Origin: Catenulispora pinistramenti
GTDB taxonomy: Bacteria; Actinomycetota; Actinomycetes; Streptomycetales; Catenulisporaceae
NCBI RefSeq assembly: GCF_018274385.1
Contig: NZ_JAAFYZ010000069.1
Span: forward strand, 1-43,189
DNA length: 43,189 nt
Reading direction: 5' to 3'
Notes under the pieces: generated by a model
Database searches by the model: none
What the model saw: the letters and a program-made list of their open reading frames with translations, nothing else
Told to the model about the DNA's origin: nothing
Made by a program: the position numbers and the translations under genes
Part shown: positions 2,932 through 15,111 of the stretch, piece by piece
Numbering within the stretch: the stretch's first letter is position 1
How the letters are laid out: each line of letters begins with the position of its first letter

Positions 2932-3333
2932 ATGGACCTGACACCCGGTCGACATGAACCGGACAGAACAGTGAAAGCTGGGACAGCATACGTGTCAACC
3001 GCAGGTCCGATGGGCTCACAGCGGCTCCGGGCGCTGGGCTGGACGGAGGGCCACGAGAAGGCCTTCGCGATCCTGCAGGAAGCCGCCGGCGCCGACCTCA
3101 TACCGGCGTTGGTCACGGAGGCCGGTGAGGGCGGCTGTACGACCGAATCCGGCACCGGCACCCTCCGGGCCACCTACGGCGCCAATCTGCTGCTGTCGAT
3201 GGCGGCAGACCCCCTCCGACGACCCCTCAACGACGACTGGATCGCCGTCCGCCGCTGGCCGGACGGACGAGCCACCGCGGAGGCCATCCTGAGCCGCCGC
3301 GTGACCCTCATGCGCCAAGAACCCTCCCGATAG
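2932..3333 (+). CDS. Free-standing RsgA-like OB-fold domain protein (tentative)
   Basis: This small protein resembles only the N-terminal OB-fold part of RsgA, the ribosome small-subunit GTPase. It contains ALGW followed by an acidic helix, a 'GxLRATYGANLL' strand region, then PLNDDWIAVRRWPDGRA and AILSRRVTLMRQEPSR. These match the RsgA order 'PAVGDWVAVR ... LPRR..LVRK'. The chain stops exactly where RsgA continues into its GTPase domain, and no GTPase motifs (GxxxxGKS, DxxG) follow. The start is uncertain: ATG 2932, GTG 2992 and ATG 3010 are all in frame, and the recognisable similarity begins only after 3010. It could be a decayed RsgA paralogue or a dedicated OB protein. The assignment rests on eye alignment only. 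Confidence 0.55.
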   Translation: MDLTPGRHEPDRTVKAGTAYVSTAGPMGSQRLRALGWTEGHEKAFAILQEAAGADLIPALVTEAGEGGCTTESGTGTLRATYGANLLLSMAADPLRRPLNDDWIAVRRWPDGRATAEAILSRRVTLMRQEPSR

Positions 3334-7046: not shown

Positions 7047-7822
7047 CCGGGGTACTGCCGATGCAGCGCCTGCATCTCCCCCAGCAGCAGTCCGAATCCC
7101 TCGCCGTGCTTCCCCGCACGCCCGCCGCGCGGCTGCCAGCCGTCGGCCGGCACGGTCAGCGTCGCGGCCTCGATCACACCCGCCACCGACGCCTCCCACG
7201 CGGGACGCAGCGTGCGCGGGTCGACCGCGATGCCCTGCTGCACCAGCTCCGTGGCCACCGGGTCGAGGAAGAACAGCTCGGCGGTGTAGGGCCACAGTTG
7301 CTCCAGGCCCGCCTGCATCCGGCGGTGGCTCTCCGCGGTGCCGTCGCCGAGCCGCAGCGTCCACTGCACCGCGTGGTCGCGGTGGTACGCGACTTCCTTC
7401 ACGGCCTTCGCCGCGAGCGCCGCCAGCTCCGGGTCCGTGGAATCACACAGAGCTGCGTACAGCTCGCTCTGGTACGTCGCGAAGTACAGCTGCCGCGCGA
7501 TCGTCACAGCGAAGTCGCCGTTGGGCTGCTCGACCAGGAGCGCGTTGCGGAACTCCCGCTCCGTGCGCAGGAACGCGAGGTCGTCTTCAGAACGTCCGGC
7601 ACCCTCTAGAGAACCGGCGTACGTCAACAGAGTCCGCGCCTGCCCCAGCAGATCCAGCGCGAGGTTCGCCAGCGCGACGTCCTCTTCCAGCTCCGGAGAA
7701 TGCGCGCACCACTCCGACAGCCGGTGCGACAGGATGAGCGCGTCATCGCCCAGCTGGAGCGCGTATTGCGCGACCGACGCGGGAGAGGCGGAGCCTGTAG
7801 AGGCCTCAGTAGTAGCGGTCAC
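7034..7822 (-). CDS. paaC: Phenylacetyl-CoA epoxidase subunit PaaC
   Basis: PaaC is the structural ferritin-like partner of the catalytic PaaA in the oxygenase that epoxidises phenylacetyl-CoA. The 262-residue chain matches the family: YALQLGDDALILSHRLSEWCAHSPELEEDVALANLALDLLGQ-type helices at the N-terminus (shown in part), a QLYFATYQSELYAAL helix and the EVAYHRDHAVQWTLRLGDGT segment. It overlaps paaB by 4 bases (ATGA), showing translational coupling. Its stop codon lies in a triplicated 17-bp sequence. Confidence 0.95.
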   Translation of the reverse strand: MTATTEASTGSASPASVAQYALQLGDDALILSHRLSEWCAHSPELEEDVALANLALDLLGQARTLLTYAGSLEGAGRSEDDLAFLRTEREFRNALLVEQPNGDFAVTIARQLYFATYQSELYAALCDSTDPELAALAAKAVKEVAYHRDHAVQWTLRLGDGTAESHRRMQAGLEQLWPYTAELFFLDPVATELVQQGIAVDPRTLRPAWEASVAGVIEAATLTVPADGWQPRGGRAGKHGEGFGLLLGEMQALHRQYPGASW

Positions 7823-8103
7823 AGGTTCTTCACCCCGTCTGGAACCCTGTAGAACGTCGGATGCCGATAGACCTTGTCCCCGGCCGGGTCGAAGAAGGGC
7901 TCCTTCTCATCCGGCGAAGAGGCACAGACGGACGCCGCCGGGACGACCCAGATGGAGACTCCCTCGCCGCGCCGCGTATAGAGATCCCGCGCATTGCGCA
8001 GCGCCATCTCCGCGTCCGAGGCGTGCACGCTCCCGACATGCTGATGCGACAGCCCACGCCGCCCGCGGATGAAGACCTCCCACAGAGGCAGACCCGTGCT
8101 CAT
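7819..8103 (-). CDS. paaB: Phenylacetyl-CoA epoxidase subunit PaaB
   Basis: PaaB is a small subunit (94 residues, normal length) that bridges the PaaAC heterodimers. [31 protein letters not shown] at the N-terminus (outline) and the closing [19 protein letters not shown] are typical. It overlaps both paaA and paaC by 4 bases, so the three are probably made in step. Confidence 0.95.
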
Positions 8104-9101
8104 GCTGCCGCAACTCCCTTGTCACTGTGCTTGGCCGCATAAGCCAAAGCTGCTTCCCGCACCCACTCGCCGTCCTCGTGCGCCTGCACCCGCGAAGCGA
8201 CCCGCTGCCGGTTGCAGGGACCGTTGCCGGCCAGCACCTCCTGGAACTCGGTCCAGTCGATCACGCCGAAGTCGTGGTGCCCGCGCTCCTCGTTCCACCG
8301 CAGATCGGGGTCCGGGATGCGCAGCCCCAGCGCCTCGGCCTGCGGGACGCTGATGTCCACGAAGCGCTGCCGCAGTTCGTCGTTGGAGTGCCGCTTGATG
8401 CGCCAGGCCATCGACTGCGCGGAGTGCGCCGACTCCGCGTCCGGCGGGCCGAACATCATCAGCGACGGCCACCACCAGCGGTCCAGCGCGTCCTGGGCCA
8501 TGGCGTGCTGCTCGGGCGTGCCGTGGGCCAGGTCGTGCAGCAGCTCGAAGCCCTGGCGCTGGTGGAAGGACTCCTCCTTGCAGATGCGCACCATGGCCCG
8601 CGCGTAGGGGCCGTAGGAGCAGCGCTGGAGCGGGATCTGGTTGATGATCGCCGCGCCGTCCACCAGCCAGCCGATGGCGCCGATGTCGGCCCAGGTCAGC
8701 GTGGGGTAGTTGAAGATCGAGGAGTACTTCTGGCGGCCGGTGTGCAGGGCGTCGAGCAGGTCGGCGCGGTCCACGCCCAGCGTCTCGGCGGCCGCGTAGA
8801 GGTAGAGCCCGTGCCCGGCCTCGTCCTGCACCTTCGCCAGCAGGATCGCCTTGCGCCGCAGCGAGGGGGCGCGGGTGATCCAGTTGCCCTCGGGCTGCAT
8901 CCCGATGATCTCGGAGTGCGCGTGCTGCGCGATCTGCCGCACCAGCGTCTTGCGGTACGCCTCCGGCATCCAGTCGCGCGGCTCGATCCGCTCGTCGGCG
9001 CCGATCAGATCGTCGAAGCGCCCCTGCAGCTCCGACTGCGCCGACAGCTCCGGTTCCGCCACGGCTGCCGCCGCGTCCTGCGTCCTGGCCTGGGCCGTCA
9101 C
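8100..9101 (-). CDS. paaA: Phenylacetyl-CoA epoxidase catalytic subunit PaaA
   Basis: PaaA is the di-iron monooxygenase subunit that converts phenylacetyl-CoA to its 1,2-epoxide in aerobic phenylacetate breakdown. Di-iron carboxylate and histidine motifs are visible: [17 protein letters not shown] (ExxH) and [19 protein letters not shown] (ExxxxH region). The closing block is [21 protein letters not shown] favour a GTG start at 9101, because AGAGG stands 8 bases before it. The longer GTG at 9110 (adding three residues) has its ribosome site too close. It is first in the paaABCDE operon. No paaK ligase, ring hydrolase or PaaR gene lies in this window. Confidence 0.94.
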
Positions 9102-9120
9102 GGCTTCCACCTCTCAACCG

Positions 9121-12103: not shown

Positions 12104-12642
12104 CGGGTCGTCTCCGTCCGCTCTGAATCCGTCTGCTCCGGCGCACCCTGCGCGCGCCAGATCTGCTCGCCCTCGTCGTCCAGTTCGCCGGTCGGCGCCA
12201 GGCCGATCCGCTCGGCGACCCGGGCCGAGGCCGCGTGGCCAGGGTGGATGTTCGCGCGGATCTCCGCCACGCCACGCTCCCGCAGCCAGGCCACCAGTGC
12301 CGAGGCGGCTTCGACCGCGTACCCGCGGCCCTGCCAGGACAATCCCACCACCCACGCGATATCGGCGCGCCGGCCCCCCTCGACGATCGTCGCCTGCACG
12401 GTCCCGACCGCGGCGCCGTCCTCGGCCCGCCGCGCGATCCAGTTCACCCACTCCTGGGAGCCGTCCGGGGAATGGCCCACGGCCAGCCGCGTGTAACGGA
12501 TTCGCAAGCCGTCCGCCGTCGGGGGCTCGCCGCCGATGAAGGTGTAGAGCTCGGGGGCGGCCAACACCTCGGCCATCTCGGCGGCGTCGGCCTCCGTCAA
12601 GGGTTTCAGCACCAACCGGGTGGTCGTCGACTCTCTAAACAT
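12100..12642 (-). CDS. GNAT-family N-acetyltransferase (RimJ-like)
   Basis: This 180-residue acetyltransferase resembles the RimJ/RimL subgroup: RLVLKPLTEADAAEMAEVL at the N-terminus, a central strand DIAWVVGLSWQGRGYAVEAA containing the Q/RxxGxG/A acetyl-CoA loop, and ANIHPGHAASARVAERIGL near the end. The substrate is not predictable. It heads a three-gene operon with map, coupled by a 4-base overlap. A TAGCAT hexamer lies only 6 bases before the ATG on the minus strand, which would give a leaderless transcript, although no good -35 was seen. Confidence 0.88.
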   Translation of the reverse strand: MFRESTTTRLVLKPLTEADAAEMAEVLAAPELYTFIGGEPPTADGLRIRYTRLAVGHSPDGSQEWVNWIARRAEDGAAVGTVQATIVEGGRRADIAWVVGLSWQGRGYAVEAASALVAWLRERGVAEIRANIHPGHAASARVAERIGLAPTGELDDEGEQIWRAQGAPEQTDSERTETTR

Positions 12643-12783
12643 GCTTGCATGCTATGCGCGACACCCCGTACCGGCGGCTCAGGCAAGTCGATAGGTAGTC
12701 CAGCCCCGATACCCGCAAACGCGCGACACCCCCTTTCAGGTTGCCGCCGTTGCGCGATCGTTACCCACCTGTGACGACGTGAG

Positions 12784-12812
12784 TTGACACCCTTACGCCG
12801 CGAGAGGATCCT
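12784..12812 (+). promoter_or_regulatory. Predicted promoter of the M-box transcript
   Basis: TTGACA at 12784-12789 is followed after 17 bases by GATCCT at 12807-12812. The start point would fall near 12819, directly at the 5' edge of the M-box RNA. Confidence 0.65.
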
Positions 12813-12816
12813 TGGT

Positions 12817-12990
12817 TTCCGTTAGGACACCTCGTTCGGTGAGGCGTCTTCACGGACAAAGGCCACTGATCCCATCGGTCGAGAGACCCTCCGGATCAGG
12901 ACAGATCTCCTCGGATTAAGGGGTGATCCCAAGTGGCTGCGCAGCTGACGCTACGCCGTGAAGTGCCGAAGCTCTGACGAGAGAGGTGGC
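12817..12990 (+). ncRNA. M-box (ykoK) magnesium riboswitch
   Basis: The conserved M-box blocks appear in order. CGTTAGG is followed by a hairpin rich in ACCTC/GAGG, then the variable arm with GATCCCATCGGTCGAGAGAC and GGATCAGG. Next comes the near-invariant TTAAGGGGTGATCCCAAGTG, then GGCTGCGCAGC, and the 3' strand GTGCCGAAGCTCTGACGA at 12963-12980. M-boxes fold tightly when Mg2+ is abundant and switch off downstream Mg2+ transport genes. It lies 356 bases ahead of an NRAMP-family transporter with a small ORF between, and a promoter fits its 5' edge. Recognition is by motif, not covariance scoring. The ends are approximate. Confidence 0.88.
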
Positions 12991-13140
12991 CGGGACAGGT
13001 CTTGGCCTTGCCGTGCGACGGCGGGCCGACGGGACCTCCCGGGTGCTCCTCCCAGAGGTGTCGAGCGCGTCCGCCGCGATCGGCGGAACCGCGCGGGACA
13101 TCAGGCGCCGCGGCGCCACGGCGGTCGGGAGGTGGTAGCG

Positions 13141-13224
13141 ATGAAATCCGGTAGTAGGTCGGGCCACAGTCGGCCCCGCATCGCGCACGACCCAGCCCAC
13201 CGCCCGTCCCCCGGCGCGCGTTAA
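13141..13224 (+). CDS. 27-codon leader ORF between M-box and NRAMP gene
   Basis: An ATG at 13141 is preceded by GGGAGGTGG, one of the strongest ribosome sites in the window, and runs 27 codons to TAA at 13222-13224. The peptide begins MKSGSRSGHSRPR and ends HDPAHRPSPGAR: basic, with four prolines and a DP pair, and no membrane or domain features. Position, strong initiation signal and Pro/Arg content suggest a translated sensor in the leader, by analogy with the proline-containing mgtL ORF ahead of enterobacterial mgtA. That role is inference. The alternative is a chance ORF. Confidence 0.6.
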   Translation: MKSGSRSGHSRPRIAHDPAHRPSPGAR

Positions 13225-13258
13225 CCGCATCAGAGCTCTGCCACCACCCGGCCACACC

Positions 13259-13277
13259 GGGACCCCGCCCGGGTCCC
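13259..13277 (+). promoter_or_regulatory. Leader hairpin between uORF and NRAMP gene
   Basis: GGGACCC (13259-13265) and GGGTCCC (13271-13277) form a perfect 7-bp stem with loop CGCCC. There is no U-tract. It could be an attenuator hairpin coupled to leader-ORF translation. The function is inferred only from position. Confidence 0.45.
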
Positions 13278-13346
13278 ACCGCGGCCGGCGGGGTTCACGC
13301 GTGCCACCCGACCAGCCGCTCCTACTCGGCAGCAGGGGGTGTTCCC

Positions 13347-15017
13347 ATGACCACGGCCACGCTGAACGGCGAAGTCCGCGACACGCAGCACGGCGCGAGT
13401 CCGTCCGCGGTGCTCGACCAGGCGCACGTCGGTGACATCAAAGGCGCTTTCGGCACCATCAAGCTCGGCGACCACGACGAGCGGGCCGGCCTGTCGGCGA
13501 AGCTGAAGACGCTGCTGGCGATCGTCGGCCCCGGGCTGATCGTGATGGTCGGCGACAACGACGCCGGCGCCTTCGCCACCTATGGCCAGGCCGGCCACGA
13601 CTACGGCACCAAGCTGCTGTGGACGCTCCTGCTGCTGGTCCCGGTGCTGTATGTGAACCAGGAGATGGTGCTGCGGCTCGGCGCGGTCACCGGGGTCGGG
13701 CACGCCCGGCTGATCTTCGAGCGCTTCGGCAGGTTCTGGGGCGCGTTCTCCGTCATCGACCTGTTCATCCTCAATGCCCTGACACTGGTCACCGAGTTCA
13801 TCGGGATCACGCTGGCGACCAGCTACCTGGGGCTGCCGAAGGTGCCCTCGGTGATGATGGCCGCGCTGGTCATCGTGGCGGCCGCGATGAGCGGTTCGTT
13901 CCAGCGGTTCGAGCGGATCGCGCTGACCCTGTGCGTGGGCTCGCTGCTGCTGATCCCGATCTCGATCATGGCGCACCCCAGCGCCGGCAGCATGACCCAC
14001 GGCTTCGTCACCCCGGTGCTGCCCGGCGGCTCGGGCCAGATGGCCACGGTGATGCTGGTGGTGATCGGCATCGTCGGGACCACGGTCGCGCCGTGGCAGC
14101 TGTTCTTCCAGCAGAGCTACGTCATCGACAAGCGCATCACCCCGCGCTTCATGAAGTACGAGAAGGCCGACCTGGGCCTGGGCATCGTCGTGGTGGTGGT
14201 CGGCGCGGCGGCGACCATCGGCCTGGGCGCGGTGGCCGCCGCCCACCTGGCCGGACCGTTCACCGACGCCGACGACGTGGCCCGCGGCCTGACCGTCTAC
14301 GGCGGCCGGGTCCTGGGCGACATGTTCGCCGTGGCGCTGCTGGACGCCTCGATCATCGGCGCGTTCGCGGTCTCGCTGTCCACCGCCTACGCGATGGGCG
14401 ACTGCCTGAAGATCAACCACTCGCTGCACCGGGGTGTGAAGCAGGCCAAGGGCTTCTACGCGGTCTACGCCGGGATCATCGCCTTCGCCGCGACGATCGT
14501 GCTGGTGGCCAGCGACCACGTGCAGGGCGTGCTGACCGTGGGCGTGCAGGCGCTGGCCGGGGTGCTGCTGCCCTCGGCGTCGGTGTACCTGCTGCTGCTG
14601 TGCGTGGACAAGGACGTCCTCGGGCCCTGGGTGAACAACCGCAAGACCACGGTGTTCACCGGCTCGGTGATCGCGGTGCTGGTGGCGCTGTCGCTGGTGC
14701 TGACCGGTTCGGTGCTGGACCAGAACATCACCGCCGGGCAGATCGAGGCGATCCTCGGCGGCTGCATGGTCGTCGCGCTGGCCTTCGGCGGCTGGCTGGG
14801 GATCAGGGCTCTGCGGACGCGCCGGGCTCCGGACTTCGTGGCCGAACACCTCGACCGCTCGGGCCGCGCCGACTGGCGGACCCCGCCGCTGGACCAGCTC
14901 GGCCAGGTCAGGTTCTCGGTCGGCACCCGGGTCGGGCTGACCGTGCTGCGCGGCTACCTCGCGGTGGCGACGGTGCTGGTGGCGGTCAAGCTGGTCTCGA
15001 TGATGCTCGGGCACTGA
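13347..15017 (+). CDS. NRAMP-family transporter, predicted to carry Mg2+
   Basis: This 556-residue polytopic protein (about 11-12 helices) has the NRAMP/SLC11 fold, but its metal-site motifs are changed. The helix-1 DPGN motif reads D72-A-G-A within GDNDAGAFATYGQAG. The helix-6 'MPH' motif reads A248-P249-W250 in TTVAPWQLFFQQ. Loss of the helix-6 methionine is the mark reported for NRAMP-related magnesium transporters (NRMTs). An M-box Mg2+ riboswitch leads the transcript. Together these point to Mg2+ uptake rather than Mn2+/Fe2+. The start is ATG 13347 with AGGGGGTG upstream. The stop TGA opens an array of 8-bp repeats that leads to a strong terminator. Confidence 0.88.
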   Translation: MTTATLNGEVRDTQHGASPSAVLDQAHVGDIKGAFGTIKLGDHDERAGLSAKLKTLLAIVGPGLIVMVGDNDAGAFATYGQAGHDYGTKLLWTLLLLVPVLYVNQEMVLRLGAVTGVGHARLIFERFGRFWGAFSVIDLFILNALTLVTEFIGITLATSYLGLPKVPSVMMAALVIVAAAMSGSFQRFERIALTLCVGSLLLIPISIMAHPSAGSMTHGFVTPVLPGGSGQMATVMLVVIGIVGTTVAPWQLFFQQSYVIDKRITPRFMKYEKADLGLGIVVVVVGAAATIGLGAVAAAHLAGPFTDADDVARGLTVYGGRVLGDMFAVALLDASIIGAFAVSLSTAYAMGDCLKINHSLHRGVKQAKGFYAVYAGIIAFAATIVLVASDHVQGVLTVGVQALAGVLLPSASVYLLLLCVDKDVLGPWVNNRKTTVFTGSVIAVLVALSLVLTGSVLDQNITAGQIEAILGGCMVVALAFGGWLGIRALRTRRAPDFVAEHLDRSGRADWRTPPLDQLGQVRFSVGTRVGLTVLRGYLAVATVLVAVKLVSMMLGH

Positions 15018-15111
15018 AGCACTGAAGCACTGAAGCACTGAAGCTTTGAAGCTTTGAAGCACAGAGGTACAGAGGCGCTGAGGAACTGAGGCGCTGAGGC
15101 GCTGAGAAACT
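15016..15111. repeat. 8-bp x12 tandem repeat from the NRAMP stop codon to its terminator
   Basis: Twelve head-to-tail octamers begin inside the stop codon: GAAGCACT three times, GAAGCTTT twice, then GAAGCACA, GAGGTACA, GAGGCGCT, GAGGAACT, GAGGCGCT, GAGGCGCT and GAGAAACT. All start with GA. Divergence grows with distance from the stop codon. The array ends 5 bases before the terminator stem. Confidence 0.92.

Follow-up and report, generated by a model that had tools for sequence, protein, structure and literature searches.

A predicted magnesium importer of the NRAMP fold behind an M-box riboswitch in Catenulispora pinistramenti

Which metal is carried by an NRAMP-fold transporter whose gene lies behind a magnesium riboswitch? 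The question is posed by a 43,189-nucleotide (nt) stretch of the actinobacterium Catenulispora pinistramenti (contig NZ_JAAFYZ010000069.1 of assembly GCF_018274385.1, forward strand; hereafter the window), in which an M-box is followed by a small leader open reading frame (ORF) and by an nrmT-type gene. A preliminary description, made from the letters alone, had proposed that the gene encodes a Mg2+ importer. Sequence comparison, on which the present account is based, indicates that the product is with good probability an M-box-controlled divalent-metal importer of the NRAMP fold, a DxxA variant of the NrmT/NRMT clade that most likely imports Mg2+ under shortage. The kind is already known, as NrmT (Shin et al., 2014, PMC4072509) and as EleNRMT (Ramanadane et al., 2022, PMC8806188); less known are that its subgroup reads DxxA-TxxA at the metal site and that a small ORF stands in the leader behind a strong Shine-Dalgarno sequence.

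The aptamer and the metal site

An Rfam cmscan of the whole window matched a single family, RF00380, along the full length of its model (positions 1-169 of 169) and far above the gathering score of 44 (Table 1). By model score the element is thus an M-box, and it is predicted to sense Mg2+. The covariance-model check suggested in the preliminary description has therefore given a highly significant result, and the M-box core blocks that it placed ahead of the NRAMP gene belong to a complete aptamer. A consensus scan of positions 12640-13400 detected neither an intrinsic terminator nor a sigma-70-like promoter.

The metal-site residues of the encoded protein are exactly those read at the outset, DAGA at 72-75 and APW at 248-250, and both canonical MntH/NRAMP ligand motifs, DxxN and A/CxxM, are absent. 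The accompanying statement that the transition-metal ligands are gone applies to the Asn and the Met, whereas D72, itself a metal ligand, is retained. In a pairwise alignment with EleNRMT of Eggerthella lenta (7qia, 7qji), D72, A75, T245, A248, W250, E150 and Q401 align with D55, G58, T224, A227, W229, E133 and Q379, the EleNRMT positions having been counted by hand. The Asp, Thr, Ala, Trp, Glu and Gln of the site are thus shared between the two proteins, whereas Ala replaces Gly58 and Q255 stands where EleNRMT has N234. The helix 6 part of the published NRMT signature, DxxG-TxxA/T (PMC8806188), is present as T245-T-V-A248.

EleNRMT is also the best solved relative (E 1.1e-48), followed by a Bacteroides NRAMP of the MntH type (3.2e-15). 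The tree analysis proposed for the SLC11 family bears this out: among 60 rows, the window protein falls into a 48-row clade with EleNRMT (support 96/93) and into a 26-row actinobacterial clade (100/100), while DraNramp, BfraNramp, plant NRAT and four DPGN proteins split off (99/96), so that it stands apart from proteins of the DPGN/MPH type. Fragments shorter than 320 residues, duplicates and most of the similar Streptomyces outgroup rows were excluded from this tree, in which the program flagged long branches. An AlphaFold2 model built from 24 sequences (predicted local distance difference test, pLDDT, 82.4; predicted template-modelling score, pTM, 0.84) shows helix breaks at residues 70-72 and 247-248, where helices 1 and 6 should be unwound.

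Nested in the NRMT-side clade is a further NRAMP branch (L129, L130 and L131, in G004, G010 and G011), whose helix 1 reads DAGS or DAGC and whose helix 6 reads AVIMPW or AVVMPW; it thus combines the Met ligand with the NRMT-type Trp.

Table 1. Features of the M-box-nrmT locus, in window coordinates
Feature	Position	Strand	Basis
M-box (ykoK leader) Mg2+ riboswitch aptamer	12824-12992	+	RF00380, 144.4 bits, E 7.2e-33
3′ strand of aptamer closing region, AGAGAGGTGG, proposed partner of 13046-13053	12980-12989	+	single-sequence folding, inference
Proposed anti-Shine-Dalgarno CTCCTCCC, pyrimidine stretch	13046-13053	+	single-sequence folding, inference
Shine-Dalgarno of leader ORF, GGGAGGTGG	13127-13135	+	sequence
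Leader ORF MKSGSRSGHSRPRIAHDPAHRPSPGAR (then stop), 27 codons, begins MKSGSRSGHSRP...	13141-13224	+	ORF comparison across leaders
GGGCC-ACAGTC-GGCCC hairpin within leader ORF	13161-13176	+	sequence, pairs kept in 10 related leaders
AGGGGG, Shine-Dalgarno-like sequence of NRAMP gene	13334-13339	+	sequence
nrmT-type gene, predicted Mg2+ importer of NRAMP fold, 556 residues, DxxA-TxxA site	13347-15017	+	PF01566, 2e-70
Helix 1 site, codons D72-A73-G74-A75	13560-13571	+	residues read in alignment
Helix 6 site, codons T245-T-V-A248-P-W250	14079-14096	+	residues read in alignment

Magnesium linkage and the choice of metal

The association between M-box and NRAMP gene recurs within the source genome and throughout the genus. 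The genome (11.46 Mb) carries a second M-box (C157:15953-16130, 131.2 bits) and three NRAMP genes, all of the NRMT type, with no DPGN-type Mn2+ importer among them. Around the second M-box lies an island (locus L006) that comprises a gene for an MgtA-type Mg2+ ATPase (TIGR01524, 991.7 bits, cut-off 610.75) and two NRMT genes. One, on the opposite strand, reads DAGG...TTVAPW; the other, the second M-box-led NRMT gene, reads DAGA...TTVAPW, and directly 3′ of it is an MgtC-family gene (PRK15385, 180.7 bits, below the cut-off of 255). A Pfam search of the genome found one CorA and no MgtE. All 15 M-boxes detected in 10 genomes of the genus have a same-strand NRAMP gene downstream, in each case with DAGA...TTVAPW; the closest named relative of the window protein among the matches listed is from Catenulispora pinisilvae (77% identity).

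Similar linkage is found farther afield. M-boxes are present in 37 of 396 genomes sampled across the phylum, the source genome included, and 24 of the 47 fetched from outside that genome (its own two and one below-cut-off match, G381:C90, being excluded) precede a same-strand NRAMP gene; helix 6, readable in 23 of these, is TxxA or TxxT and never contains the Met. The best 80 relatives among the matches listed for the named-species collection, which come from Actinomycetota and Proteobacteria records, comprise 68 DxxA-TxxA proteins, 10 of the DxxG-TxxA type and two that could not be read (L162, L207), although, as they were picked by likeness to the window protein, which is itself uncounted, these proportions are not those of the clade. 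In 57 of their loci scanned with Rfam, an M-box lies upstream of the gene in 19 (16 DxxA, three DxxG), all in actinobacterial records. In record L143, a CorA-like ORF, matched over the N-terminal half of the family, has a divergent M-box of its own.

Neighbouring genes point toward the same metal. A homologue of mgtC lies directly 3′ of nrmT in 12 of 83 loci examined (including the genus loci L006, L136 and L137) and in 4 of 29 further loci, and genes with MgtE-N and CBS domains stand ahead of distant NRAMP genes. Together with the M-box score and the grouping with EleNRMT, the mgtC, MgtA and MgtE-N neighbours support the earlier reading as a Mg2+ importer at the level of sequence. That reading had also treated the riboswitch and the ligand site as independent witnesses; they do agree, but they are not fully independent, because the NrmT clade was itself found through its linkage to M-boxes.

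The locus resembles that of Clostridium acetobutylicum NrmT (Ca_c0685), in which an M-box likewise precedes an NRAMP-related gene that is not a canonical MntH (PMC4072509); Mg2+ import, predicted for the window protein, has been demonstrated for the clostridial one. The M-boxes before NRAMP-related genes in that study were mostly from Clostridia and Deltaproteobacteria, and its authors describe most M-boxes as acting on an intrinsic terminator, whereas the window locus has an actinobacterial host, a leader ORF and no terminator that was found; a Catenulispora paralogue is followed by mgtC, where Shin et al. described partial MgtE.

Several observations weigh against Mg2+ as the substrate, or against a fixed tie to the M-box. 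The helix 1 DxxG of the published NRMT signature (PMC8806188) is replaced here by DxxA, and because residues 72-75 read D-A-G-A the protein is filed as a DxxA variant of the NRMT clade and not as a strict DxxG member. The structure prediction called for in the preliminary description confirms an NRAMP fold, with NRAMP structures leading both the Foldseek and the VIA-align lists and EleNRMT first in Foldseek (1.2e-16; top-ranked MntH, 1.6e-12), but VIA-align Z values (38.5 for DraNramp, 36.8 for EleNRMT) do not separate NRMT from MntH, so that the fold is non-discriminating. One Rfam scan of 19 mostly proteobacterial relatives returned no M-box. Close relatives of the gene also occur in four genomes from other genera of the family, where neither a search of the genome nor a scan around the gene at E 1 detected an M-box. 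In addition, rescue of a Mg2+-transport-deficient strain by the NrmT of A. capsulatum was limited to low millimolar Mg2+, its rescue of a Mn2+ transport defect was complete, and the authors took it for a probable manganese transporter (PMC4072509); a triple mutant of EcoDMT bearing NRMT residues showed no interaction with Mg2+ (PMC8806188). Loss of the Met ligand is therefore insufficient for Mg2+ transport.

It could thus be that the window protein, as a member of the NRMT clade, imports manganese or a broad range of divalent metals, and that the M-box stands before it because the aptamer answers Mn2+ or for historical reasons. EleNRMT does carry Mn2+ as well as Mg2+ (PMC8806188), and the source genome, with its three NRMT-type NRAMP genes, has no DPGN-type Mn2+ importer that was found. 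We nevertheless consider this unlikely, since the A. capsulatum nrmT is without an M-box (PMC4072509), the window protein retains T245, the equivalent of EleNRMT T224, without which Mg2+ transport was not detectable (PMC8806188), and the neighbouring genes point to Mg2+. The riboswitch evidence from relatives runs the same way. The only Mn2+ riboswitch in the 57 scanned loci lies near a proteobacterial relative and directly precedes a different gene, presumably UPF0016-like. That the gene encodes a canonical MntH-type Mn2+/Fe2+ importer adjoining an unrelated M-box is scarcely tenable: it has the NRAMP fold, and its best-scoring NCBIfam model is that of MntH (PRK00701), but the score of 86.5 bits is far under the cut-off of 430, the Asn and Met ligands are missing, the tree places the protein in the other clade, with EleNRMT, and every genus M-box is linked to an NRAMP gene.

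As a Mg2+ importer, the protein would work in the mode of EleNRMT, with partly hydrated Mg2+ held by D72, T245 and the main chain of helix 6, in a site that the missing Asn and Met make wider, and without proton coupling. The NRAMP-type Mg2+ importers under M-box control would then include an actinobacterial subgroup that has a metal-site signature of its own, and the DxxA subgroup offers a test of what lets an NRAMP accept Mg2+. A related case is the manganese-transporter-type M-box branch reported in mycobacteria (PMC12810186). The NRAMP genes behind four M-boxes (L081, L083, L085 and L087; probably from Mycobacteriaceae, by inference) encode DxxG-TxxA proteins, and for this reason that branch may carry Mg2+ too.

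Two side observations concern the wider NRAMP loci. In L104 (2107-3417, minus strand) and L111 (731-1993, plus strand), M-box-led proteins with MgtE_N, CBS and PRC domains, in which the MgtE membrane domain had no match, are encoded directly before an NRAMP gene; partial MgtE genes of this sort were described by Shin et al. (PMC4072509). In L133, a locus of the genus, positions 3079-3146 match the ASdes small RNA (RF01781, 63.5 bits) close to a DPGN-type NRAMP gene.

The leader reading frame

A small ORF behind a strong Shine-Dalgarno sequence, placed between aptamer and first gene, is a feature of the pe20-type M-box of Mycobacterium tuberculosis, for which translational, Rho-linked action involving such an ORF has been shown experimentally (D'Halluin et al., 2026, PMC12810186). 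The window has this arrangement, which the preliminary description had not noted. Like the pe20 leader, its leader is long and, within the scan reported above, lacks an intrinsic terminator. The two differ in the downstream gene, PE/PPE in M. tuberculosis and nrmT here, and in the peptide, which is of the MSPSDSPYP type there, described as mycobacteria-specific (PMC12810186), and of the SGHSRP type here. By eye, no more than a short Ser- and Pro-rich resemblance to uORF2/Rv1805A (MSxxDSPYP type, with a conserved Pro) can be seen, by way of Nocardia and Catenulispora forms. A literature search made up mostly of titles and abstracts, with subscription journals largely outside it, found no earlier description of leader ORFs downstream of non-mycobacterial M-boxes, of an nrmT-mgtC pairing, or of Catenulispora M-boxes.

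Within the genus, the ORF and GGGAGGTGG occur in all 10 leaders of the window type; in a second type (four genomes and C. pinisilvae) the ORFs resemble MDSPSSSTTRQP... and lack the GHSRP core, and a single leader, L019, encodes MDSSSPGHSRPPIRACTPSSGTR followed by a stop codon. Nine leaders from Streptomyces, Kitasatospora, Streptosporangiaceae and others (named or metagenome-assembled records) contain ORFs resembling M[DE]CSSPGHSRPxxRLSSHSSGTR-stop, 77-118 nt past the aptamer. In the order Streptomycetales, where M-boxes were found in 28 of 391 genomes, 25 of the 29 M-boxes outside the genus have behind them an ORF that contains the core G[HR]x[RCQ]P (the exceptions being L240, L255, L266 and L267); this count selects the ORF by its core, and a scan that is blind to the core and begins from the Shine-Dalgarno sequence recovers 24 of the 25. 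The next gene after these 29 M-boxes is nrmT in 13 cases, an NRAMP gene 1.7-2.2 kb downstream in nine, mgtC in three, and unassigned or beyond a contig end in four; in both tested cases of these nine, a gene for an MgtE_N/CBS protein comes first.

The ORF can also be traced by its nucleotide sequence. A frame-blind pattern for the 21-base core, allowing at most one mismatch, gave 28 matches in the 391 genomes, against two for the reversed control. Known Streptomycetales M-boxes precede 21 of the 28, and six of the other seven, when fetched, proved to have a Shine-Dalgarno sequence and an ORF of the PGHS type, while a scan of the fetched stretches at E 1 gave no M-box. One of these M-box-less ORFs (L268) lies upstream of an nrmT whose product is 65% identical to the window protein, three are followed some 1.5-1.75 kb farther on by distant NRAMP genes, and L269 has an opposite-strand M-box about 1 kb away. 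The seventh match, L270, was set aside as due to chance, since no PGH ORF led by a Shine-Dalgarno sequence is present there.

By eye, an imperfect inverted repeat, TTGC...GCAA, is seen a short way before a TATnCT-like element 5′ of the M-box-less ORFs of L268, L272, L273 and L274; conceivably it is a repressor operator that replaces the M-box. A similar sequence appears, again by eye, before the M-box in L002, L016, L017 and L018.

Is the leader ORF translated? What is conserved could instead be an RNA element, namely the GGGCC...GGCCC hairpin with a purine run, serving for example as a part of the switch or as a Rho-related site, and this is a distinct, if somewhat doubtful, possibility. In 10 related leaders the hairpin, which overlaps the core, keeps its pairs in 92% of cells, compared with 22-70% when the register is slid, with no covariation; changes in the ORF are spread over all codon positions, and none of three leader-ORF groups yielded a consistent excess of conservative substitutions in the ORF frame, nor did two mycobacterial groups that served as controls. 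On the other side, when starts are anchored on the Shine-Dalgarno sequence and picked frame-blind, those of 47 out of 50 leaders share the frame of the core despite varied spacing (one of them, at 98 nt, probably by chance), and the three that are out of frame (L239, L011 and L015) have a GTG or TTG closer to the Shine-Dalgarno sequence than the ATG. This count leaves aside 33 of 83 leaders that lack a usable core or Shine-Dalgarno sequence, including the C157-type, Leifsonia, Nocardia and mycobacterial ones. Synonymous codons also vary within the core: of 45 leaders, 35 use CGG for the Arg and 7 use AGG, and for the His 27 use CAC and 17 CAT. Moreover, translation of the mycobacterial counterpart has been demonstrated by others (PMC12810186).

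Since related ORFs precede different Mg2+ genes, also where there is no M-box, a cis-regulatory role is suggested for the ORF, as opposed to its being a part of one transporter. We propose only tentatively, and with more doubt than confidence, that SPGHSRP-type leader ORFs are a regulatory device of actinobacterial Mg2+-transport operons (nrmT, MgtE-N/NRAMP, mgtC), a second gate that operates with or without an M-box, and that the mycobacterial uORF2 peptides are a branch of the same device. If so, the ribosome might, for example, respond to a nascent peptide or to a sequence that makes it abort early, much as at enterobacterial mgtL, which serves as the model for comparison; the window ORF would then lie in series with the riboswitch and place the importer under two sensors. 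The recurring ORF would also give a handle on the purpose of the small ORF behind the mycobacterial M-box.

A possible translational switch

By analogy with the mycobacterial system, the M-box is proposed to act on translation of the leader ORF. At high Mg2+, the closed aptamer would retain its own 3′ strand, leaving the downstream pyrimidine stretch free to mask the Shine-Dalgarno sequence of the 27-codon ORF; the untranslated leader would then be cut short by Rho, and the importer would not be made. At low Mg2+, the leader would be translated and transcription would extend into nrmT.

Single-sequence folds fit an anti-Shine-Dalgarno that alternates between the aptamer strand and the Shine-Dalgarno sequence. 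In ten streptomycete-type leaders, antisequester cells are paired in 80% of cases, against 37-53% when slid. Other comparisons speak against the model: by duplex energy relative to dinucleotide shuffles, pairing reached p<0.05 in 2 of 47 leaders for the Shine-Dalgarno helix and likewise in 2 of 47 for the aptamer helix, and in 26 of 47 the best partners of the two overlapped. Antisequester covariation is weak, its score being reached by 58 of 500 shuffles and its percentage paired by 19 of 500, and in the Shine-Dalgarno helix, paired in 82% of cells against 44-67% slid, covariation is absent, 302 of 500 shuffles reaching the score.

Elsewhere in the window, an imperfect tandem repeat of ACTGAAGC-like units, noted by eye, extends around and beyond the NRAMP stop codon (15013-15110), and paaA and paaB, phenylacetyl-CoA epoxidase genes, occupy 7819-9110 on the minus strand.

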